Origin: Desulfosporosinus nitroreducens
GTDB lineage: Bacteria; Bacillota; Desulfitobacteriia; Desulfitobacteriales; Desulfitobacteriaceae
DNA: 64,000 nucleotides
Reading direction: 5' to 3'
Assembly (NCBI RefSeq): GCF_023897015.1
Contig: NZ_JAMHFY010000003.1
Span: 124,001-188,000 of the forward strand
The position numbers were made by a program, and so were the translations under genes. The notes below the pieces were generated by a model that was not told where the DNA came from, searched no databases, and saw only the letters and a list, made by a program, of their open reading frames with translations. Numbering within the stretch: position 1 is the first letter of the stretch; the number at the start of each line of letters is the position of its first letter. Positions 438-16,346 of the stretch are shown in pieces.

Positions 438-458
438 GTGTTTAGAAAATTCAATAAC

Positions 459-612
459 TACAGGTGCCTCATTGTGAGGAGAATAGGGAAGTCGGTGTAA
501 GTCCGGCGCGGTCCCGCCACTGTAAACGGGAAGCAAGAAGCATATTACCACGGGTTAGTTCCCGGAAGGTGCTTCGAAGTGTTGATCCGTAAGCCAGGAG
601 ACCTGCCTTGTA
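459..612 (+). promoter_or_regulatory. Cobalamin (B12) riboswitch
   Basis: The segment carries the conserved cobalamin aptamer signatures: a paired acaggtgcc/gcctgt base, the AAGTCGGTGTAAGTCC-type core, the B12 box GCCACTG near 517, and the closing segment AAGCCAGGAGACCTGCC. It is followed 60 bases later by an intrinsic terminator, so the likely logic is transcription termination when adenosylcobalamin is abundant. The genes downstream make the lower ligand of cobalamin, which fits feedback control by the end product. Confidence 0.95.
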
Positions 613-670
613 GTTAAGCTAAGCCTACCTTGTCGAAGAACCAAGAGTAGTGTGGATGAGATTATGGAAA

Positions 671-770: not shown

Positions 771-2057
771 TTGACGTTAATGGAAATGGCCCAAAGGGGT
801 CAAGAAACCCCGTTGTTTACCTTAGTAGCCCGCAACGAACAAATCAATGTCCAACTCCTTATGGAACGGGTTGCTGCCGGACGAATTGTTATTCCCTATA
901 ACGGTCATCACAAGCCCCAAAAGCCTCAAGGGTTTGGGCTGGGCCTAAGTACCAAGGTTAGTGCCAGTATTGGCCTGGCCGCAGACGAGGATAGTCTAAC
1001 GGATGAACTATTTAAAGTGGATGAGGCCATCAGGGCAGGAACCAATGCCATCATGGATTTGAGTACAGCGGGAAATATGGATGAAGCAAGGCGGACAATT
1101 ATAAAAAGAGTACCGTTACCTTTAGGTACACTACCTGTGTATCAGGCTTTTGCTGAGGCTGTATGTACTAAGGGTTCAGCTTTAGCACTTGAGCCAGAAG
1201 ACTTTTTTAAGATTATGGAACGCCAAGCTGCCGATGGAGTTGATTTTATGGCCTTACACAGCGCCCTGCACTCTGGTTTATTTAAAACGGCCAAGGCAGA
1301 TCAGCGAGTTCTGAATCTGGTTAGTCGAGGTGGGTCCTTGTTGATGGGCTGGATGCTCTATCATGGTAAGGACAACTTTTTGTATACCATGTTCGACCGC
1401 ATCCTTGAAATTGCCCAAAAATACGAAGTTACTTTAAGCTTAGCTGATGCAATGAGACCGGGTGCAGGAGCTGATTCATTATGTCGTTCTCAAGCTGAAG
1501 AGCTCGTCGTTCTAGGCGAGCTGGTAAAGCGCAGCAGACAAGCGGGGGTTCAAATCATGATTAAGGGACCTGGTCACACTCCACCTAATCAAATTGCGAC
1601 AACTGTTAAATTGGAAAAACAAGTATGTCAAGGTGCTCCGTATTTTGTCTTCGGACCGGTATCGACGGATGTAGCCCCAGGATATGACGAAATTACGGCT
1701 GCTATCGGAGGAGCGATGGCTGGTGCTGCTGGAGCGGATATTCTCTGCTATGTTACACCCGCCGAACATATAGGTTATCCCGATGCGCAGGATGTCTATC
1801 GGGGAGTGGTGGCTGCACGTATTGCTGCTCATGTGGCTGATCTGGCAAAAGGGTACCCCGGAGCAGTAAATTGGGACCTTAAAATGAGTCAAGCACGTCG
1901 GGAGCAGAATATAGAAGCCCAGAAAACGTTAGCCTTAGATCGAGAAAGGCTTACGGGGTTCCAATCGGGCGAAAAACCTTTCTGCAAAAAATGTAAAAAC
2001 GCTTGTGCCATGGCTGTAGCAGGTGAGTTCTTTCAAGAACTGCCGTGGGAGTGCTGA
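771..2057 (+). CDS. bzaA: 5-hydroxybenzimidazole synthase subunit BzaA (ThiC paralogue)
   Basis: ThiC-family radical SAM enzyme. In the anaerobic B12 lower-ligand pathway, BzaA and BzaB together turn 5-aminoimidazole ribotide into 5-hydroxybenzimidazole. The protein has ThiC-like blocks (SRGGSLLMGWM, DAMRPG, GPGHTPPNQI, CYVTPAEH) and ends with a Cys-x2-Cys-x3-Cys motif (CKKCKNAC) for the 4Fe-4S cluster. It is more diverged than the ThiC paralogue that follows. The annotated start is TTG at 771, 13 bases after AAGGAG; ATG at 780 is an alternative. It is the first gene after the cobalamin riboswitch and is followed by a second ThiC paralogue, the known bzaA-bzaB arrangement. A plain thiC is unlikely because of the pairing, the B12 riboswitch and the downstream genes. 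The A/B assignment follows gene order and is inferred. Confidence 0.88.
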   Translation: MTLMEMAQRGQETPLFTLVARNEQINVQLLMERVAAGRIVIPYNGHHKPQKPQGFGLGLSTKVSASIGLAADEDSLTDELFKVDEAIRAGTNAIMDLSTAGNMDEARRTIIKRVPLPLGTLPVYQAFAEAVCTKGSALALEPEDFFKIMERQAADGVDFMALHSALHSGLFKTAKADQRVLNLVSRGGSLLMGWMLYHGKDNFLYTMFDRILEIAQKYEVTLSLADAMRPGAGADSLCRSQAEELVVLGELVKRSRQAGVQIMIKGPGHTPPNQIATTVKLEKQVCQGAPYFVFGPVSTDVAPGYDEITAAIGGAMAGAAGADILCYVTPAEHIGYPDAQDVYRGVVAARIAAHVADLAKGYPGAVNWDLKMSQARREQNIEAQKTLALDRERLTGFQSGEKPFCKKCKNACAMAVAGEFFQELPWEC

Positions 2058-2169: not shown

Positions 2170-3468
2170 ATGACACAATTAATTAAAGCGAGACAAGGAA
2201 TTATTACGCCTGAGGTAGAGAGATTAGCAAAGGTAGAAGGGCTTAGGGCAGAAGAGTTATGTGAGAAGGTTGCTCAAGGTCGGGCAGTGATCTTAAAGAA
2301 CAAACAACGTAAGAACTCGGTCTCAATCGCCATAGGGGAAGGACTCCGTACTAAAGTAAATGCTAATATCGGGACGTCACCGGACTGTGTGGATTTTTCC
2401 GATGAGCTGCATAAAATAAAGGTTGCCGTCGCGGCTGGAGCGGATTCCATTATGGAACTAAGTATTGGCGGAGATGTGGATGCTTTCCACCGTCAGGTGC
2501 TGGATACTTTTACATTACCTGTCGGCTCTGTCCCCACCTACCAAACAGGCATGGAAAGTATTTCCAAGCATGGAAGCGTTGTCGGTATGACGGCTGAGGA
2601 TATGTTCGAAATGATTGAACGTCAGGCAGAACGTGGGATTGATTTTATGGCAATTCATGCTGCATTAAACATGTCTATCGTTGAAAGGTTAAAAAATCAA
2701 GGGCGAATTACAGATATTGTTAGTCGCGGCGGAGCCTTTTTAACGGGTTGGATGTTCCACCATGAGCAAGAGAATCCACTCTACACACAATTTGATCGCG
2801 TGCTAGAGATTTGTAAAAAATATGATGTAACTCTAAGTGTTGGAGATGCAATCCGACCTGGTTGTATCGAAGATTCTCTGGACCGGGCCCAGGTCCAAGG
2901 GTTGATTGTGGCTGGGGAATTGGTACAACGGGCTCTGGCGGCTGGAGTCCAAGTGATGGTAGAAGGTCCAGGCCATGTACCTGTTGATCAGATCCCCGCA
3001 ACGATCTTGCTCCAAAAACAACTTTGCCATCATGTTCCTTACTATATTCTGGGCAATTTGGTCACGGATATTGCACCGGGCTATGACCATATCACAGGAG
3101 CAATAGGCGCTACAGCGGCTGCTATGGCAGGTGCCAACTTCATTTGCTATGTTACACCAGCAGAACATCTGCGTTTACCAACTGTTGAAGATGTACATGC
3201 AGGGGTAATTGCTACACGTATAGGAACTCATGCTGCAGATATCGTTAATGGTGTTAAGGGTGCGCGAGAATGGGACTTAGCCATGGCTCATGCTCGCAAA
3301 GCTCTAGATTGGAACAAACAAATTGAATTATCAATTGATCCCCCAACGGCTCAGCGAATCCGTGGAGAGCGTAACGAGGAGGGCGCTGAAGCCTGCTCAA
3401 TGTGTGGTGGTTTCTGTGCTATGAAATTAGTGGGAGAACACTTAGGAAAAACGGGAGGAACTTGTTAA
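2170..3468 (+). CDS. bzaB: 5-hydroxybenzimidazole synthase subunit BzaB (ThiC paralogue)
   Basis: Second ThiC-family radical SAM protein, 432 residues, the usual size of the short ThiC/Bza group. Key blocks are visible: TKVNANIGTS near residue 62, SRGGAFLTGWM, GDAIRPG, VEGPGHVPVDQI, CYVTPAEHL and a C-terminal CSMCGGFC (Cys-x2-Cys-x3-Cys) for the iron-sulfur cluster. It keeps more canonical ThiC residues than the preceding gene. It is expected to act with BzaA on AIR to give 5-hydroxybenzimidazole. The ribosome binding site GGAGAG lies 7 bases before ATG. The 112-base gap from bzaA holds no gene. A role as the cell's thiamine ThiC cannot be fully excluded, but the operon argues against it. Confidence 0.9.
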   Translation: MTQLIKARQGIITPEVERLAKVEGLRAEELCEKVAQGRAVILKNKQRKNSVSIAIGEGLRTKVNANIGTSPDCVDFSDELHKIKVAVAAGADSIMELSIGGDVDAFHRQVLDTFTLPVGSVPTYQTGMESISKHGSVVGMTAEDMFEMIERQAERGIDFMAIHAALNMSIVERLKNQGRITDIVSRGGAFLTGWMFHHEQENPLYTQFDRVLEICKKYDVTLSVGDAIRPGCIEDSLDRAQVQGLIVAGELVQRALAAGVQVMVEGPGHVPVDQIPATILLQKQLCHHVPYYILGNLVTDIAPGYDHITGAIGATAAAMAGANFICYVTPAEHLRLPTVEDVHAGVIATRIGTHAADIVNGVKGAREWDLAMAHARKALDWNKQIELSIDPPTAQRIRGERNEEGAEACSMCGGFCAMKLVGEHLGKTGGTC

Positions 3469-3499
3469 CAAAGAAGATATGGATACGGAGGGAAAGCAA

Positions 3500-3991
3500 A
3501 TGAGCCAAATTGGGGTCATTATGGGAAGTGATTCAGATTATCAAGTCATGGAAGAAGCTTTAGAAGTCCTCCAGCAATTTGAAGTTCAATTTGAAGTTAT
3601 CATTTCTTCTGCCCAAAGGACCTTGAAACGAACGGTCGATTGGGTGAAAGGTTTTGAAACGCAAGGTGGAATGCTGATTATCGCTGCTGCTGGTTTAGCT
3701 GCTCATTTGCCTGGGATTGTGGCGGGGACAACGAAGCTTCCGGTCATCGGTGTTCCGATGAGCAGTGGAGCCATGGAAGGAATCGATGCTCTTTACTCCA
3801 TTGTACAAATGCCTTCGGGAATTCCAGTTGCGACCGTAGGAATTGGTGCTGCCCGAAATGCTGCACTGCTGGCAGTGCAGATTCTAGCAATTCAAGATCA
3901 AGCATTGAGTATCAAGGTTAATGACTATCGAGCTCAGATGTTAAAAGAAATTGAGGAGAAGGACGAAGCATTGCAGAAGCAGTTAAGTTAA
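3500..3991 (+). CDS. PurE paralogue with catalytic His replaced by Gln (bza operon)
   Basis: Close paralogue of PurE (N5-CAIR mutase or AIR carboxylase), 163 residues, about four in five residues identical by eye to the housekeeping PurE encoded at 12141. The nucleotide-binding loop GSDSDY and the AAHLPG block are kept. The catalytic histidine of the SSAHRT motif (E. coli His45) is glutamine here: codon CAA at 3614-3616, residue 39. E. coli His45 is the general acid/base, so normal mutase activity is doubtful. The frame is intact and the start at 3500 has a strong site (GGAGGGAAAGCAA-ATG), which argues that the protein is made. It lies between bzaB and a PurF paralogue under the B12 riboswitch. 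AIR is the substrate shared by PurE and BzaA/B, so a role in AIR handling is plausible but unproven. Confidence 0.85.
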   Translation: MSQIGVIMGSDSDYQVMEEALEVLQQFEVQFEVIISSAQRTLKRTVDWVKGFETQGGMLIIAAAGLAAHLPGIVAGTTKLPVIGVPMSSGAMEGIDALYSIVQMPSGIPVATVGIGAARNAALLAVQILAIQDQALSIKVNDYRAQMLKEIEEKDEALQKQLS

Positions 3992-4029: not shown

Positions 4030-5424
4030 ATGTTCGAATTAGGAGAAGACAAACCAAAAGAGGAATGCGGGGTTTTGGGGATTTATGCCCCCACTCAGGA
4101 AGTTGCCCGTTTAACTTACTACGGACTCTATACTCTGCAACACCGAGGGCAAGAAAGTGCAGGAATCGCAGTTTCCGAAGGATTAAGTATTAATGTGCAT
4201 AAAGGAATGGGCTTGGTGTCGGAAGTATTTTCAGATAGTGTTGTGGATTGTTTGAAGGGGAAAATGGCAATTGGACATGTATGTTACTCTCCAACAGGCT
4301 CAGGCTTGCCCGCCAATGCTCAGCCCATAGTAGTACACTACCAAAAAGGCATGATGGCCTTAGCTCATAATGGAAGTATAACCAATGCCCTGGAACTACG
4401 TGAGGAACTTGGAAAAAAAGGGGCGGTTTTCCAAACGACGATTGACAGCGAAGTAATTATTAACCTGATTACACGCTATCGCCAGAAGTCCTTGGAAGAT
4501 TCCCTGGTTAAGACTATGCGGGATCTACGTGGGGCGTATGCCTTGGTTATCTTGGCGGAAGATAAAGTTATAGGACTCAGAGATCCTCACGGAGTCCGTC
4601 CCTTATGTATTGGACGGATGAGGGAGGGGTATTGCTTAGCCTCAGAAAGTTGTGTTCTTGATATTACGGGGGCAGAGTTTGTGCGGGATGTAGAACCCGG
4701 TGAAATTGTGGTGATCGATGAAGAGGGACTGCACTCATACCGAGGATACTCCAAACTTGAGCGTAGGTCTTGCGCCTTTGAATATATCCATATTGCCCGT
4801 CCGGATAGTACAATTGATCAGCTGAGTGTATCGGAAAGCCGACGTCGCATGGGGGTTGAATTGGCTCGCGAATATCCACTGGATGTAGATCTTGTGATAG
4901 CGGTCCCAGACTCCGGGACCGCTTCTGCCCTAGGGTATGCTACAACACTGGGGATTCCCTTCGGAGATGGAATTATAAAAAACCGTTATATTCATCGAAC
5001 CTTCATCCGACCAACTCAAGAAATGAGAGAAGTGGACGTTCAGCTGAAGCTCAATGCTAATGCAAGTGTCCTTAAAAATAAGCGCATTGTTATGGTTGAT
5101 GACTCGATTATTCAAGGTACCACCAGTTCTAAACTGGTGGCGATGGTTAGAAATGCAGGAGCCAAAGAAGTCCATTTCTTGATTAGTTCTCCTCCGGTAG
5201 TCTATCCATGTTTCTATGGAATTGACACGGTAAAACCAGAAAAACTCATTGCCAATCAATTTGATTTAGAAGGAATTCGAGAGTTTGTCGGAGCAGGTTC
5301 ACTACACTACATTTCTAAGGAAGGTTTGCTGCGAGCACTTGGGACGGACTGCGTTTGCTTAGCTTGTTTTGACGGAGTGTATCCAATTCCGATTTGGGCT
5401 TTATCGAAGCCAAACGAATTTTAA
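4030..5424 (+). CDS. PurF paralogue with altered Gln- and PRPP-binding residues (bza operon)
   Basis: Paralogue of amidophosphoribosyltransferase (first step of purine synthesis, PRPP + glutamine to phosphoribosylamine), 464 residues, close in sequence to the PurF at 14928. The nucleophile Cys13 after a short propeptide, the NG of the oxyanion hole and the four cysteines expected for a 4Fe-4S cluster are present. Conserved positions have changed. The Arg of HVRYST, which binds the glutamine carboxylate in E. coli (Arg73), is Cys85 (TGT at 4282-4284). The PRPP motif DDSIVRG reads DDSIIQG (Gln362). In the flexible loop the Gly of YVGRTF is His322 and the Arg of AVRLK is Gln338. Activity with glutamine or PRPP may be impaired or changed. 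The start at 4030 follows GGAGGGGG. Confidence 0.85.
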   Translation: MFELGEDKPKEECGVLGIYAPTQEVARLTYYGLYTLQHRGQESAGIAVSEGLSINVHKGMGLVSEVFSDSVVDCLKGKMAIGHVCYSPTGSGLPANAQPIVVHYQKGMMALAHNGSITNALELREELGKKGAVFQTTIDSEVIINLITRYRQKSLEDSLVKTMRDLRGAYALVILAEDKVIGLRDPHGVRPLCIGRMREGYCLASESCVLDITGAEFVRDVEPGEIVVIDEEGLHSYRGYSKLERRSCAFEYIHIARPDSTIDQLSVSESRRRMGVELAREYPLDVDLVIAVPDSGTASALGYATTLGIPFGDGIIKNRYIHRTFIRPTQEMREVDVQLKLNANASVLKNKRIVMVDDSIIQGTTSSKLVAMVRNAGAKEVHFLISSPPVVYPCFYGIDTVKPEKLIANQFDLEGIREFVGAGSLHYISKEGLLRALGTDCVCLACFDGVYPIPIWALSKPNEF

Positions 5425-5474
5425 TACTTTGTTATTTATGAACTCAATTGAAATCCCGAGGGGAGGTAATAAAG

Positions 5475-7037
5475 ATGGGACTAGCACCTTTTCTTCGGTA
5501 TAATCCCCATGAAGAAGGGTCTCAGTATTTGGAAGACTTGGCAACTGGGTACTGGTTTTCCGAGGTGCTATTTACAGCCGTTGAACTGGACGTCTTTACG
5601 TTTCTGGAGCGTAGAGGTATGACGACTCATGAAATTGCTGGAGCACTGGATATGCCTCCTATTGGTTGGGGGCGATTTCTTCAAGCCCTTTGTGCTATAG
5701 GGCTCGTAGTTTATGATGCAGGTCGTTATTATAATACCAAACTTGCAAGCGACTATCTTGTCATAGGTAAATCTAAATATCAAGGAGATTCGATCCTTTG
5801 GCGAAAAGGCCTTAGGCTTGGGTGGCAGGACCTTACCGAGTGCCTTAAGGCCGGCGGCAGAGTGAATTTTCCAGTCGAAGAAGAGGGGCCAGAGGAGTTT
5901 GCTCAGCGGATTCACAAGTATATCAATGCTATGGACAATATAGCTAGAACAAAGGTAGCAGAGATTCTGCCCTTCTTCCAGGGGATTGAACTCAAGGGGG
6001 AAATACTCGATATTGGGACAGGCTCTGGGGCGATTGCTGTCGGTTTTCTAGAAAGCTTTACTTCTCTATCGGCAACATTAGTGGATATTCAGGAAGTCCT
6101 TAACTATACTCAGGAGTTGATGGATAAGAAAGGGTTGAAAAAACGGGTTTCCTATATTCCTACTAATATTTTAGAACCTTGGTTAATAGCTAAGGAAGGG
6201 TTTGACCTGGTCGTTCTTTCAAATATCATCCACGCTTATTCAGAAGAAGAGATCCCTCGGATCTTGGATCGAGCTGCAAATTGTCTTAAGTCGGACGGGT
6301 TCCTGGTTATTCATGATTTCTTTCCTGAGCACTGCTCTGCCAAGTCGGCTTTGCTCGATCTAAATATGTTTATCAATACCTACAATGGCAGGATCTTTTC
6401 TGGAAAATGGGTAAAAGAACAATTAGCCATGTCAAAACTGTACACAACTGAGCTCATCCCTCTAGCGACGGACACTGCTCTGATCTTCGCGGCTAAGGAT
6501 AAAAAGAAACTATCGAGTCTCTGCTTGGATGAGAAAACCCGTTTGATTGCTAGGATCAAAGCGATGGGATTTGGGGAGGTCCTGCCTATCGATAAAGCAA
6601 ATATCCAGGTTGTTGACTGGACAGATTTACGTTGCCAGTACGGCTGTGATCGGTACGGAGATGGTCATTGCCCGCCCAATAGTCCCTCTCCTCAAAAAAC
6701 GAGAGAGGTACTCAAAGACTTTTCCTATGCTCTGCTTCTGGAAGGGGAACCTCCAGGAAAAGTGTTTCAGAGAAAGGTTTTAGACGCCGAGAGAGAGGGG
6801 TTTTTAGCTGGATTTCATAAAGCGTTTGCCTATTGGGCCGGCCCATGTGTTCTTTGTACTACCTGCAGTGTGGCAGATAACAATGGGTTGTGTCGAAATA
6901 CAAGGGATGCTAGGCCATCTATGGAGGGCTCAGGTATTGATGTTTACGAGACCGTCAGACGGGCGGGTCTTAATCTTCAGATTTTGCGCGACAAGGGTGA
7001 GTATGTTAGATATTTTGCCCTGTTGCTATTGGAGTGA
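5475..7037 (+). CDS. bzaC: BzaC-like O-methyltransferase fused to a DUF2284 cysteine domain
   Basis: About 520 residues. Residues 20-110 resemble the winged-helix dimerisation domain of class I plant-type/hydroxyindole O-methyltransferases. Residues 170-340 are the SAM-dependent methyltransferase fold with LDIGTGSGA near 178-186. The last 170 residues form a DUF2284-like metal-binding domain with cysteines at about 387, 391, 399, 458, 461, 464 and 473. BzaC is known to O-methylate 5-hydroxybenzimidazole, and the position after bzaA/bzaB supports that role. What the cysteine-rich tail does is not known to me; an iron-sulfur cluster for electron supply or metal binding is an inference. The start at 5475 follows GGGGAGGTAATAAAG. 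The next gene begins 6 bases after the stop. Confidence 0.8.
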   Translation: MGLAPFLRYNPHEEGSQYLEDLATGYWFSEVLFTAVELDVFTFLERRGMTTHEIAGALDMPPIGWGRFLQALCAIGLVVYDAGRYYNTKLASDYLVIGKSKYQGDSILWRKGLRLGWQDLTECLKAGGRVNFPVEEEGPEEFAQRIHKYINAMDNIARTKVAEILPFFQGIELKGEILDIGTGSGAIAVGFLESFTSLSATLVDIQEVLNYTQELMDKKGLKKRVSYIPTNILEPWLIAKEGFDLVVLSNIIHAYSEEEIPRILDRAANCLKSDGFLVIHDFFPEHCSAKSALLDLNMFINTYNGRIFSGKWVKEQLAMSKLYTTELIPLATDTALIFAAKDKKKLSSLCLDEKTRLIARIKAMGFGEVLPIDKANIQVVDWTDLRCQYGCDRYGDGHCPPNSPSPQKTREVLKDFSYALLLEGEPPGKVFQRKVLDAEREGFLAGFHKAFAYWAGPCVLCTTCSVADNNGLCRNTRDARPSMEGSGIDVYETVRRAGLNLQILRDKGEYVRYFALLLLE

Positions 7038-7043
7038 ATTAAT

Positions 7044-8378
7044 GTGCGTGTTCTGATGATTCAAACCCCTTCAGTAGAAGAAATTTCTCAGGAAAGAGTC
7101 TATCCCATTGGGATTGTCCTGCTGGCCAGTCGCCTCCAAGAGGGTGGTCATGAGGTGAGTATCTTGGACATGAACCGAGAAAGAGACCCTTATGGAGCTC
7201 TGAAGGAGAAGCTTCTGACGTTTCAACCTGAAGTGGTAGGTTTATCCCTTCGTAATATTGATCCGCTGGGCAATAAGACGAGCTCTCTAATTTCGCCCTT
7301 TATTGTCACAGTTCGCTTGATTGATGCTGTTCTGCCCCAAGCTTGGTTAATTGTGGGCGGTACCGGCTTTTCCCTCTTTCCAAAACGACTGATGCTTGAA
7401 GTACCAGAATTGGATTATGGAATTGTAGGAGAAGCAGAAGTAACTTTTCCTGCTCTTCTCCACACTATAGAGAATCCGCCGCCAATGCCTGGGCTCTGTC
7501 TGCGAGAGGGCTTGAAGGTACACGTTTCTCCGCCTGCGACTAATTTTGACATGGCAAATTATGTTCCTGCGAATCGACTGTTGCTGGACCCGGAGCTTTA
7601 TATAGGGATCAACAACTACGTTCCCACCATTGGAATTGAGGCTAAACGGGGGTGTGGGCTTAACTGTGCTTATTGTGTCTATCCTCAGCTTCAAGGGAGG
7701 AGATTGCGGTGCCGACCGACTGTTGCTGTTGTGGATGAAATGGAAATCTTGCATAAAGAGTATGGTATTGAGAGTTTTCATTTTACCGATCCTGTACTTA
7801 ACGTTCCCAGCGGTCACCTTGAGGGAATCTGTGAGGAGATACTAAGCAGAAAGCTCAAGATTCGCTGGGACGGTTTCATGAGGGAAGATCAGCTTAATGA
7901 AAAGAATGTCGCTTTGTTTGAACGGGCTGGGTGTGAATGTTTTTCCTTCTCCCCTGATGGTTTGTGTCAAGAATCATTGGATGTCTTAGGCAAAAACCTT
8001 AGTGAGGCACAAATTTTAAAAGCAGCCAATCTCGTTGCGCAAACGGAGGTGGTCAGTGTCTATCATTTTATGGTCAATGTGCCTGGAGAGACGGAAAAGA
8101 CTTGCGAGAAAAGTATTCAGTTTGTGGAACGACTTTATGAATTACACAGCAAGAAAAAGAATCTGGGAACCATCATATTGAATAATATTCGCATTCTACC
8201 AGGCACAGCGATCGAAAGGATAGCTAGAGCGCAAGGGGTTATTAACTCAGAAACAGATTTGCTCTATCCGACTTATTACAACCCAAAACCGTTTGATACG
8301 TTCAGATATAAGCTGGAAACGCTTCAGCAGTGCAGAAATGTCTTTATGTGGCAGGAAGTGAGGAGAAAGCTGAAATGA
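7044..8378 (+). CDS. bzaD: BzaD-like radical SAM, B12-binding-type methyltransferase
   Basis: Radical SAM protein, 444 residues. Residues 1-140 form a Rossmann-like B12-binding-type N-terminal domain, and the cluster motif CGLNCAYC (Cys204, Cys208, Cys211) opens the radical SAM barrel. In the characterised pathway BzaD adds a methyl group at C6 of 5-methoxybenzimidazole, an unactivated-carbon methylation typical of B12-dependent radical SAM enzymes. Start GTG at 7044 with GGAG 10 bases upstream. The stop overlaps the ATG of the next gene (ATGA), so the two are translationally coupled. Assignment of D versus E follows gene order and is less certain than membership in the pathway. Confidence 0.8.
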   Translation: MRVLMIQTPSVEEISQERVYPIGIVLLASRLQEGGHEVSILDMNRERDPYGALKEKLLTFQPEVVGLSLRNIDPLGNKTSSLISPFIVTVRLIDAVLPQAWLIVGGTGFSLFPKRLMLEVPELDYGIVGEAEVTFPALLHTIENPPPMPGLCLREGLKVHVSPPATNFDMANYVPANRLLLDPELYIGINNYVPTIGIEAKRGCGLNCAYCVYPQLQGRRLRCRPTVAVVDEMEILHKEYGIESFHFTDPVLNVPSGHLEGICEEILSRKLKIRWDGFMREDQLNEKNVALFERAGCECFSFSPDGLCQESLDVLGKNLSEAQILKAANLVAQTEVVSVYHFMVNVPGETEKTCEKSIQFVERLYELHSKKKNLGTIILNNIRILPGTAIERIARAQGVINSETDLLYPTYYNPKPFDTFRYKLETLQQCRNVFMWQEVRRKLK

Positions 8379-9868
8379 AGATACTCTTATTAGAGCACCC
8401 GCGAATTGTCTGCCCGGAACGATGTAATGACATCGCCAATACGCCTCTTTCCTCTTGTCTGCATTCTGGTTATATTGCCGGTATGCTCACAAGTGAAGGG
8501 CATGAGGTCGTAATTGTTGAAGGTTTCCTAGATGGACTGGACTACCAAGAAATAGAGCGCAGGGTAAAAGACATACAACCGGACATACTGGGAGTTCATA
8601 TGGTCTACCATTGGCAGACGGACACGGCCTTGTACGCTTTTCTCAGCAAAGTAAAAGCTGAACGACTCTCCTATATTACAGCATACGGGTATTATCCGAC
8701 CACTGACTTCGAAGACATCTTAAAGCAGTGCCCGGATCTTGATTCAGTCATTCTAGGTGAACCGGAACTGACCTTTGCTAGGTTGGCCAAAGCTTTAACT
8801 GATAAAGATAGTCTGAACAAATTTCCAGGTCTTGCTCAGAGGGATGATTCAGCTACAGTCGTTTCACAACGTCGCGAACTGGTGAGTGATCTGAACGCCC
8901 TCCCATTTCCTGTACGAACGGAAGCCCTTTTTCGTCTGCCGGAAGTAAACCTGCAGGGGAGTAGGGGATGCTATGGGGGATGTACTTTTTGCTATATCAA
9001 CCCTTTTTATGGACAAGGGTCTCAGTGGCGGGGACGAACTCCGGAAAACATTATCGCGGAAATCGATGAGTTAATTGCTGAGCATAAAATTGAGGACTTC
9101 TATTTTACTGATCCCAATTTCTTTGGTCCGGGTGAAAGGGGCCAGCAACGGGCCATGCGCTTGGCCGCTCTTCTTAAATCCAGAAATATTCGCTTCGGCA
9201 TCGAGGCTCGGGTTAATGATATTCATGAAGAAACTATAAGTTCCTTGGTAGAAGCAGGCTTGCGCCATATTCTCATAGGACTGGAGAGTGGTAGTGACAG
9301 TTCGCTAAAACGGATCAATAAGATGACCACGGTCGCTCAGAACGAGAGGGCGATCAAAATCCTCCGTAAATATGGAATTGAGCCTAATATTGGGTTTATC
9401 ATGTTTGAGCCGGATTCATCCTTGGTAGATATCCGAGTCAACTTTGAATTTCTAAAGCGCAATGACCTATTGAATAATCTGGCGATTACGGCGAACATGC
9501 TCTATCATCACCTGATTGTTTTAAAAGGAACGAAGGCGCACCGAGATCTACAAAAGGCTGGGCGTCTGGAGGTCCAAGCATCATCGTATGAAAGCGTAGT
9601 GACTCTTACGGATCCTAAAGTAGCAGTCTTAGCCATGATCATGAGGAGAATTACCAACTTTCTTTTCGACTGTATGGCTGGGATATGGGGTGGCCAGGTT
9701 GCGGAACATGAGAATGCTCAAGAACAATATTCAACTATAAATGGTTTGTTGGCCAATTTATTTGAGTATACTTTGGAGACTTTAGAGGCTGGGGGACAGT
9801 TTACGGAGGAAAAGGTAGAGAGTTTGGTTAAGAGGACTGAGAAAGAAATAGCTGGGATTTTGGCATGA
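8375..9868 (+). CDS. bzaE: BzaE-like radical SAM, B12-binding-type enzyme
   Basis: Radical SAM protein of 497 residues. Residues 1-140 look like a B12-binding-type domain and are followed by CYGGCTFC (Cys199, Cys203, Cys206), the CX3CX2C motif. Further radical SAM blocks include FTDPNFF and GLESGSD. In the known pathway BzaE completes 5,6-dimethylbenzimidazole from the methoxy-methyl intermediate. It starts at 8375 inside the stop of the preceding gene (ATGA overlap). It is the last gene of the operon here. No cobT lies in the cluster, although cobT is part of some described bza operons. No clear terminator follows directly; the next recognisable sequence is a truncated gene on the other strand. 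Confidence 0.8.
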   Translation: MKILLLEHPRIVCPERCNDIANTPLSSCLHSGYIAGMLTSEGHEVVIVEGFLDGLDYQEIERRVKDIQPDILGVHMVYHWQTDTALYAFLSKVKAERLSYITAYGYYPTTDFEDILKQCPDLDSVILGEPELTFARLAKALTDKDSLNKFPGLAQRDDSATVVSQRRELVSDLNALPFPVRTEALFRLPEVNLQGSRGCYGGCTFCYINPFYGQGSQWRGRTPENIIAEIDELIAEHKIEDFYFTDPNFFGPGERGQQRAMRLAALLKSRNIRFGIEARVNDIHEETISSLVEAGLRHILIGLESGSDSSLKRINKMTTVAQNERAIKILRKYGIEPNIGFIMFEPDSSLVDIRVNFEFLKRNDLLNNLAITANMLYHHLIVLKGTKAHRDLQKAGRLEVQASSYESVVTLTDPKVAVLAMIMRRITNFLFDCMAGIWGGQVAEHENAQEQYSTINGLLANLFEYTLETLEAGGQFTEEKVESLVKRTEKEIAGILA

Positions 9869-11848: not shown

Positions 11849-11868
11849 GAACTTATTAAAATTTCATA

Positions 11869-11942
11869 CGTGTTCATATAACCGCGGAGATATGGTCCGC
11901 AAGTTTCTACCAGGCCGCCGTAAATGGTCTGACTATGAGCGA
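11869..11942 (+). promoter_or_regulatory. Guanine riboswitch aptamer
   Basis: The conserved purine aptamer is present: P1 arms GTTCAT/ATGAGC, the TATAA junction, GATATGG, AGTTTCTACC, a GCCGTAAATGG loop and GACTATG. The base before the closing TATG is C, which by the known xpt/add comparison marks guanine or hypoxanthine rather than adenine. It lies upstream of purE and would lower expression when guanine is plentiful. Confidence 0.92.
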
Positions 11943-12060
11943 AAGTGTACCTAGGGCAAATGTATTTGTATTATTTTCTTAGTCCGAGTGGTACAGGTTT
12001 GATTGCGAAATCAAATCACACCGAAGGGATAAAAGCCCAGGCGGGTAGGTTTCACTCTGT
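11943..12060 (+). promoter_or_regulatory. PRPP riboswitch (ykkC subtype 2b), in tandem with the guanine aptamer
   Basis: The segment carries ykkC-class landmarks: GTGTACCTAGGGC near 11945, TAGTCCGAGTGGTACAGG near 11980-11998, and CACCGAAGGGATAAAAGCCCAG at the 3' side. The ykkC subtype upstream of purine genes senses PRPP. A guanine aptamer directly followed by a PRPP aptamer is a known tandem arrangement in which PRPP permits expression unless guanine is bound. The 3' part overlaps the terminator arm. I assigned the ligand from motif memory and gene context, not from a covariance model. Confidence 0.82.
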
Positions 12061-12140: not shown

Positions 12141-12638
12141 ATGAGCCAGATTGGGGTTATTATGGGAAGTGATTCGGATTACAAGGTCATGGAGGAATCC
12201 ATCAAAGTTCTTCGTGAGTTTGAACTTGATTTTGAAGTCAAAATTTCTTCTGCGCATAGGACTTTAGAGAGAACCGTCGACTGGGTAGAAGCTTTTGAAG
12301 CCCAAGGAGGTAAACTAATCATCGCGGCGGCAGGGTTAGCGGCCCATTTGCCGGGGGTTGTAGCAGGGGCAACAACTTTACCTGTGATCGGTGTTCCTCT
12401 AAGCAGTGGCGCCATGGAGGGTATTGATGCCCTTTACTCCATCGTGCAAATGCCCCCGGGAATTCCGGTGGCAACTGTAGGCATTGGTGCGGCACGCAAT
12501 GCAGCCTTGCTTGCGGTACAGGTTCTAGCCGTTGAGGATAAACCCCTGAGTATAAAGGTTAAAAACTATCGAGCTCAGATGATGAAAGATATTGAAGCGA
12601 AGGACGAAGCACTGCAAAAAAGATTAAGTGAAGGTTAA
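12141..12638 (+). CDS. purE: PurE, N5-CAIR mutase or AIR carboxylase
   Basis: Housekeeping PurE, 165 residues, with GSDSDY, the catalytic SSAHRT histidine (residue 39), AAGLAAHLPG and the PVATVGIGAARNAALLA block. It makes carboxyaminoimidazole ribotide in the purine pathway. No purK follows. Either PurK is elsewhere, or this PurE uses AIR and CO2 directly (class II type); the sequence alone does not settle it. First gene of the pur operon after the tandem riboswitch. The ribosome binding site AGGGGAGAGGGGC lies upstream of ATG. The bza-operon paralogue at 3500 looks like a duplicate of this gene. Confidence 0.95.
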   Translation: MSQIGVIMGSDSDYKVMEESIKVLREFELDFEVKISSAHRTLERTVDWVEAFEAQGGKLIIAAAGLAAHLPGVVAGATTLPVIGVPLSSGAMEGIDALYSIVQMPPGIPVATVGIGAARNAALLAVQVLAVEDKPLSIKVKNYRAQMMKDIEAKDEALQKRLSEG

Positions 12639-14927: not shown

Positions 14928-16346
14928 ATGTTCGAATTTGGAGAGGACAAACCGAAAGAGGAATGTGGAGTCTTTGGTATTTATGCTCCCGATCAAGAGG
15001 TTGCCCGTCTTACTTACTACGGGCTTTATGCTTTACAGCACCGTGGTCAAGAAAGCGCTGGAATCGCAGTTTCGAATGGCTTGAGCATCAATGTGCATAA
15101 AGGAATGGGTTTAGTGTCGGAAGTTTTTTCTGACAGCATAGTGGAAGGCTTGAAAGGGAAAATGGCCATCGGTCATGTGCGATATTCCACGACGGGATCA
15201 AGTCTGCTGGCAAATGCTCAGCCTTTAGTGGTACACTATCAAAAAGGTATGATGGCTTTAGCACATAATGGGAATTTGACAAACGCATCAGATCTTCGAG
15301 AAGAACTAGGAAAAAACGGTGCGGTTTTCCAAACGACGGTTGACAGTGAAGTGATTATTAACCTTATAACTCGGTATCGCCGAGAATCATTAGAAGACGC
15401 GCTAGTTAAGACCATGATGGATCTGCGCGGGGCATATGCCTTGGTTATCTTAGCGGAGGATAAGCTTTTTGGAATCAGGGATCCCCTTGGCGTTCGCCCT
15501 TTATGTATTGGGAAGCTAGGGAGTTGGTATTGTCTAGCTTCGGAAAGTTGTGCCCTTGATACTATTGGCGCAGAGTTTGTAAGAGATGTAGAACCTGGTG
15601 AAATTGTTGTAATTGACAAAGAAGGATTACACTCACGTCGGGGGTTGAACAAAACTAAGCGGGCGTGCTGTGCTTTTGAATATATCTATTTCGCTCGACC
15701 AGACAGTACGATGGATCAGTTAAATATAGCTGAGAGCCGACGGCAGATGGGTATAGAACTGGCCCATGAATGTCCGATTGAAGCAGATCTTGTAATTGCA
15801 GTTCCAGATTCCGGAACTGCTTCGGCCTTAGGGTATGCGACGGCATTGGGAATACCGTTTGGAGAAGGACTTATTAAAAATCGTTATGTGGGCAGAACCT
15901 TTATTCAACCGACTCAGGCAATGAGAGAAGTTGCAGTTCGTCTTAAACTTAATGCTAATGCGAGCGTTCTGAAAGATAAACGTGTCGTGATGATCGATGA
16001 TTCTATCGTCCGAGGAACGACTAGTTCTAAGCTTGTGGAAATGGTCAAGAAGGCGGGAGCTAAAGAAGTACATTTTTTAATCAGTTCTCCTCCAGTGGCC
16101 TACCCGTGTTTCTATGGAATTGACACTGCAGAACGGGAAAAGCTCATTGCCAATCAATTGGATGTCGATGGAATTCGACAGTATGTTGGGGCAGATTCAT
16201 TGCACTATATTTCTGAGGAGGGCTTGCTTCGCGCACTGGGGACAGAGGCTGTTTGCCTGGCTTGCTTTAATGGAGCGTATCCTATTCCAGTTTCGAGTTT
16301 AAACCGAGGTAAGAGCAATTTTGAATCTCATAATTCTTGTGGATGA
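14928..16346 (+). CDS. purF: Amidophosphoribosyltransferase
   Basis: 472 residues. It makes 5-phosphoribosylamine from PRPP and glutamine. Cys13 is the N-terminal nucleophile exposed after removal of a short propeptide. HVRYST keeps the glutamine-binding Arg85. AHNGNLTN holds the oxyanion residues. YVGRTFI and [12 protein letters not shown] form the PRPP loop and motif. Cysteines near residue 249, YPCFYG and CLAC fit the Bacillus-type 4Fe-4S cluster. ATG follows GGGGGAGAGAGGGGCGG. The gene end overlaps the upstream region of purM. This is the intact partner of the altered paralogue at 4030. Confidence 0.96.

Follow-up and report, generated by a model that had tools for sequence, protein, structure and literature searches.

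A PurE paralogue with glutamine in place of the catalytic histidine, fixed and kept under selection in the bza operon of Desulfosporosinus

A duplicate copy of PurE, encoded by a gene designated here purE', lies behind a cobalamin riboswitch in the B12 ligand (bza) operon of Desulfosporosinus nitroreducens and carries glutamine in place of the catalytic histidine; the substitution has a single origin, is fixed among the bza-linked PurE proteins of the genus, and has been held under purifying selection. The observation, made in a first-pass annotation of the window (the whole stretch of 64,000 nucleotides that was analysed), is thereby confirmed and proves stronger than first stated, this being the natural, fixed, and selected equivalent of the laboratory-made H45Q mutant of E. 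coli PurE. The chances are judged about even that PurE' is a non-catalytic paralogue that binds AIR (5-aminoimidazole ribonucleotide) and favours synthesis of the B12 ligand under cobalamin shortage. The relevant features of the window, all on the plus strand, are listed below.

445 to 625, plus strand: cobalamin riboswitch aptamer upstream of the bza operon (Rfam RF00174, 123.8 bits)
780 to 2057, plus strand: bzaA-like ThiC-family gene, with its reading frame open from a GTG at 687 (Pfam ThiC_Rad_SAM; named by gene order)
2170 to 3468, plus strand: bzaB (TIGR04386, 729.7 bits, cut-off 700)
3500 to 3991, plus strand: purE', PurE paralogue with Gln39 (E. coli His45) and Ile34 (TIGR01162, 193.8 bits, cut-off 149.6)
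3614 to 3616, plus strand: CAA codon giving Gln for the catalytic His (from the sequence, SSAQRT motif)
4030 to 5424, plus strand: purF', PurF paralogue with R85C, T88P, N116S, and R362Q among its changes (TIGR01134, 498 bits, cut-off 350)
5448 to 7037, plus strand: SAM methyltransferase fused to DUF2284, in the bzaC position (Pfam; BzaC name by gene order)
7044 to 8378, plus strand: bzaD (TIGR04385, 785.2 bits, cut-off 450)
8330 to 9868, plus strand: B12-binding radical SAM gene in the bzaE position (Pfam B12-binding and Radical_SAM; name by gene order)
11854 to 11955, plus strand: purine riboswitch upstream of the housekeeping purE (RF00167, 84.7 bits)
12141 to 12638, plus strand: housekeeping purE, with SSAHRT (TIGR01162, 196.2 bits)
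14928 to 16346, plus strand: housekeeping purF (TIGR01134, 549.3 bits)

The coding sequence of purE' at 3500-3991 counts the stop codon and gives a product of 163 residues; an alternative in-frame ATG at 3479 would add seven residues, and the start at 3500 is the one that agrees with the orthologues. The first-pass reading of SSAQRT in this copy against SSAHRT in the housekeeping copy, at about 80% identity, was accurate, with 132 of 163 aligned residues (81%) being identical between the two. The place of Gln39 is that of E. coli His45, since the PDB entry 2nsh is titled “E. coli PurE H45Q mutant complexed with nitro-AIR” and the sequence common to 2nsh and 2nsj holds glutamine at the matching place; the mutant of these two entries thus bears the identical substitution, made in the laboratory in the one case and natural in the other. 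An AlphaFold monomer of PurE' (mean pLDDT 79.5, built with only ten close sequences) confirmed the PurE fold and located residue 34 in the strand just ahead of the active-site loop, octamer contacts not being visible from a monomer. PurE' shares with class I PurE (TIGR01162; N5-CAIR mutase/AIR carboxylase) its fold, length, GSDSD, Ser37, Arg40, and AAHLPG, and differs from it in the Gln for His, in K34I, in its place within a B12 ligand operon, and in belonging to a genome in which no PurK was found.

The search for PurE in the window genome (G000; completeness 99.99%, contamination 4.61%) returned two PurE genes and a weak third match, which is LarB (291.6 bits against the NF033503 cut-off of 175) and has His at the place aligned with Gln39 of PurE'. 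LarB, which serves nickel-pincer cofactor synthesis, is a sequence relative of PurE with another job; PurE', unlike it, scores 53.5 bits with the LarB model NF033503, under the cut-off.

The operon runs in the order bzaA-like gene, bzaB, purE', purF', methyltransferase-DUF2284 gene (bzaC position), bzaD, and radical SAM gene (bzaE position). The bzaA-like product scores 514.9 bits with TIGR04386, below the cut-off of 700, and is above cut-off with two general ThiC models; no NCBIfam model is above cut-off for the bzaC-position methyltransferase, and none of those listed is for the bzaE-position gene. As no model named BzaA, BzaC, or BzaE is above cut-off in the window operon, these three were assigned by order and domains. 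DUF2284, the fusion partner of the methyltransferase, is a metal-binding domain. A cobalamin riboswitch was found upstream of the operon in all seven of the other purE' loci scanned, out of ten such loci. The arrangement resembles the bza operons of Eubacterium limosum, Acetobacterium woodii, and Moorella thermoacetica in having bzaA-bzaB first and a methyltransferase in the bzaC position, and those of E. limosum and A. woodii in having the bzaD and bzaE positions next (PMC8123684, in extract). It departs from the published operons in the slot between bzaB and bzaC, which holds purE' (and purF') and not cobT. The cobT of G000 is on a separate contig (C10), and in G041, of the same family, cobT sits in that very slot; purE' is therefore in the place where cobT is expected.

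Fixation of the glutamine was surveyed across 45 genomes of the family, 43 of which yielded 57 PurE rows. A PurE directly 3' of bzaB occurs in 11 genomes, all of one genus, and has Gln at the catalytic place in every case (11/11), against none of the 42 housekeeping copies, all of which have His; the divergent extra PurE copies of the family likewise have His (3/3). The row of G026 is unreadable because an N gap crosses the gene, and the hybrid purE entertained for that genome was dropped on the same ground. The question put in the first-pass annotation, whether Gln is fixed among bza-linked PurE proteins, is thus answered in the affirmative, and random residues at this position in orthologues, which would have told against its reading, were not seen. 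The glutamine is encoded by CAA in six and by CAG in five of the 11 genes, so that synonymous change has occurred at the codon without loss of the residue. When the 74 alignment columns that are invariant in 32 housekeeping PurE proteins were inspected, 62 were unchanged in all 11 bza-linked copies and 10 varied in some; the two columns replaced in all 11 are Lys34, now Ile, and His39, now Gln.

A wider collection, in which 84,980 species are represented by a single genome each, was scanned for S-(A/P)-Q-R followed at a fixed distance by AAHLPG. The 26 stretches retrieved resolved, after translation, into eight Desulfosporosinus purE' genes, one Lachnospiraceae purE, and 17 chance occurrences; the eight loci are identical to eight of the 11 family loci and add no further cases. 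The pattern is blind to other replacements of the His and to a differing motif, its sensitivity was checked on local genes only (11/11 Gln copies, and 32/32 for the His version), and the collection may omit records of or near the window genome. As far as the scan shows, Gln-bearing PurE is confined to one genus. The Lachnospiraceae case is a purE in a metagenome-assembled genome (L116 3-407) with Gln at the catalytic place, where the codon falls almost at the start of the contig and may be a sequence error; the gene, which lies at the contig edge and precedes genes identified by eye as purM/N/D-like, was treated as doubtful. In the collection of mainly open-access papers that was searched, no title or abstract opening among those listed points to a PurE in a bza locus or to a PurE pseudoenzyme, nor was Desulfosporosinus found together with bza terms; PMC10378866 reports a Desulfosporosinus with a core B12 gene set and no bza terms.

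The 11 bza-linked sequences form one clade with a split support of 100 in both DNA and protein trees, and of 99 when codons 34 and 39 are left out; a support of 36 seen for this clade was discarded as a re-rooting artefact of the same unrooted split of 100. Selection was estimated with a purpose-written codon model on the DNA tree, in which branch lengths were fixed from the nucleotide tree and scaled per class, giving omega values of 0.076 for housekeeping branches, 0.111 for the bza crown, and 0.13 for the bza stem. A neutral crown was rejected by some 258 units (lnL -9812.7 vs -9554.3). One omega for all branches fitted worse by 5.2 log-likelihood units, so constraint on the bza-linked copies is somewhat relaxed relative to the housekeeping ones, at an omega of 0.113 against 0.076. 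The neutral expectation of about 10.6 substitutions per codon across the clade means that retention of Gln in 11/11 without constraint has a rough p of 0.0002. Mean pairwise identity is 86% among the bza-linked proteins and 88% among the housekeeping copies of the same genomes. As one clade under purifying selection, purE' is not a product of decay.

The chemical consequence of the substitution can be judged from work on PurE elsewhere. According to a computational study of human PAICS (PMC9376930, cited throughout from extracts), the catalytic His is shared universally by class I and class II PurE and serves as general base in converting isoCAIR to CAIR, in keeping with the acid/base role assigned to it in the first-pass annotation; its replacement by Asn, Gln, or Trp inactivates E. 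coli PurE, and A. aceti PurE retains mere traces of activity with Gln or Asp. The isoCAIR carboxylate is held in the human model by the backbone NH of Ala302 (Ala38 here) and Gly334. In the bza-linked family, the His of the SAH(R/K) motif is missing throughout, Gln standing in its place, and GSDSD, S37, R40, A64, G65, and AAHLPG are intact in 11/11, so that the claim of an otherwise conserved pocket stands for most of it. Residue 38 is Pro in 4/11 and Ala in 32/32 housekeeping copies; as Pro has no backbone NH, one carboxylate contact is lost in those four besides the base that is lost in all. Near the pocket motifs, residue 63 is Val in 1/11 and Met8 is Ile in 1/11. Loss of the base with retention of the pocket motifs would favour an AIR binder over a CAIR decarboxylase.

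No match to TIGR01161 (PurK) was obtained in G000, and across the 45 family genomes the model gave two matches above cut-off and two weaker ones, with 13 of 14 controls matching and 11 of them above cut-off. With no PurK found, the reaction lost is probably AIR carboxylation and not N5-CAIR mutation; the “mutase” step of the first-pass annotation was probably the wrong reaction. Its proposal of binding without the usual chemistry survives as the best reading, given the fixed Gln and a pocket that is mostly kept. For PurK-less archaea with class I-like PurE, the use of CO2 with AIR, the non-enzymatic formation of N5-CAIR, or an unknown enzyme has been discussed (PMC3261824, in extract). The two PurK genes above cut-off, the only such in these 45 genomes, are in G019:C59 and G027:C21 (L056, L063), each beside a second, divergent His-bearing PurE, and possibly represent an acquired purEK pair.

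The neighbouring purF' was scored against residues invariant in 16 housekeeping PurF proteins. It is full-length in four genomes (G000, G015, G030, and G021), whose purF' genes form one clade with a split support of 100, a value of 93 being again a re-rooting artefact of the unrooted split. T88P, N116S, and R362Q are among the changes in all four, and R85C is confined to G000. The omega of purF', 0.163 against 0.045 for housekeeping purF, indicates purifying selection. Suspected decay in G015 and G021 was dismissed, since the internal-looking stops sit at the C-terminal end and the genes are merely slightly shorter. When a 12-residue propeptide is subtracted, Arg85 becomes residue 73, which we take to be the glutamine-binding Arg of E. 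coli PurF. With Cys at Arg85 and Ser at Asn116, the PurF' of the window may be an ammonia-using or otherwise altered PurF. A 48-residue piece of purF' persists in G028.

Other PurF paralogues were encountered beside cofactor genes. G008, G019, and G017 each have a separate PurF paralogue (L078 9802-8444, L079 8763-7393, and L080 5300-6670) that shares about 50% identity with PurF' and is flanked by a cobalamin riboswitch on one side and a bzaAB-like pair on the other; it was apparently recruited to the B12 ligand branch independently. In G009 (L081 5487-6827), a PurF of this kind lies between two TPP riboswitches, upstream of a ThiC-family gene, and is apparently dedicated to thiamin synthesis. 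These placements would support an AIR supply tied to cofactor demand, and purE' would follow the same logic on the consumption side.

Among 16 same-genus genomes with a close BzaB (at least 87%), purE' is intact in 11. G018, with a BzaB that matches the window copy at 98% identity, has wrecked purE' and purF' remnants (L090 10300-11080, minus strand) beside a retained bzaA, bzaB, and three downstream genes; G022 has a short purE' remnant, G021 has lost purE' and kept purF', in G013 the operon has collapsed, and G026, with its N gap, is the one unreadable case. Given that some close relatives have lost it, purE' is dispensable and its role modulatory; if the operon of G018 works, purE' is not essential to the pathway.

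The reading preferred here starts from AIR, which is the common start of the ThiC and bza branches (PMC11117688 and PMC8123684, both in extract) and from which the bza branch is described as departing (PMC8123684; for BzaF, PMC11117688; extracts likewise). The fixed His-to-Gln change would have switched off the carboxylation chemistry, after which PurE' was retained for a different job. Most likely it still binds AIR, common to the purine and benzimidazole B12 branches. Through the cobalamin riboswitch it would be made when cobalamin is short, and it would then shift AIR towards BzaA and BzaB, either as a carrier that holds it for them or as a member of PurE octamers that slows purine synthesis; in genomes that retain PurF', this paralogue would increase the supply of AIR. 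We infer AIR binding, lack of activity, a partner, and an effect on flux from the evidence above. The account leaves K34I without explanation, sits less easily with the somewhat weaker constraint on the bza-linked copies, and in its braking mode faces the objection that housekeeping subunits might work at their usual rate within a mixed octamer.

The main rival, to be regarded as unlikely, is new chemistry, in which Gln39 and Ile34 would reshape the site to accept a different substrate from the branch, such as a benzimidazole precursor or its ribotide. That a single short strand-loop carries two fixed replacements, most other positions being conserved, looks like a change of function, and LarB, the scoring relative, provides a PurE-like protein of another pathway; the LarB of G000, however, retains the His, G018 has its bza genes without purE', and in other anaerobes bzaABCDE/F are described as making up the whole bza pathway (PMC8123684, in extract). 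Less probable again is a weakly active PurE', acting as a slow AIR/CAIR interconverter that returns CAIR to AIR when B12 is short. AIR carboxylation without PurK is in principle reversible, which speaks for this possibility. So do the traces of activity left in the A. aceti Gln mutant, set against the reported inactivity of E. coli H45Q (PMC9376930). The suggestion in the first-pass annotation that only decarboxylation back to AIR is catalysed is likewise unlikely, because by microscopic reversibility the same His should serve both directions and because 4/11 copies have Pro at residue 38, where the human model relies on the backbone NH of Ala to bind the carboxylate; both points also weigh on the slow interconverter.

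A purely structural or dosage role, with mixed octamers of PurE' and housekeeping PurE serving no ligand-related purpose, appears improbable to a further degree: the 81% identity of the two proteins and the octameric state of E. coli N5-CAIR mutase (PMC11451730, a preprint, in extract) are compatible with it, but GSDSD, S37, R40, and AAHLPG would not obviously be required for such a role and are conserved in 11/11. That purE' is a decaying duplicate with a drifted catalytic site is scarcely credible, in that the remnants in G018 and G022, the slightly relaxed constraint, and the missing Arg85 in PurF' of G000 are opposed by an omega of about 0.11 with the neutral crown strongly rejected, by Gln in 11/11 under both codons, and by an identity within the clade close to that of the housekeeping copies. 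As a general account, decay is rejected by the codon model and the fixation of Gln, and holds for G018 and G022 only.

The non-catalytic AIR-binding reading is directly testable, because the protein is small and its relatives have been crystallised and assayed. A His described as universal in PurE has been replaced in a duplicate copy behind a B12 riboswitch, and that copy has been kept under selection. If the reading is true, PurE' would be a pseudoenzyme whose equivalent mutant is already crystallised in E. coli, and a metabolic switch would have been built from the silenced copy of a competing enzyme. With somewhat less than even confidence, this natural pseudoenzyme may be seen as a holder of AIR, or a brake, that is under B12 control and divides a single metabolite between the purine and cobamide pathways. 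The finding points to an extra layer of control in anaerobic B12 ligand synthesis, concerned with the sharing of AIR among purines, thiamin, and benzimidazoles.
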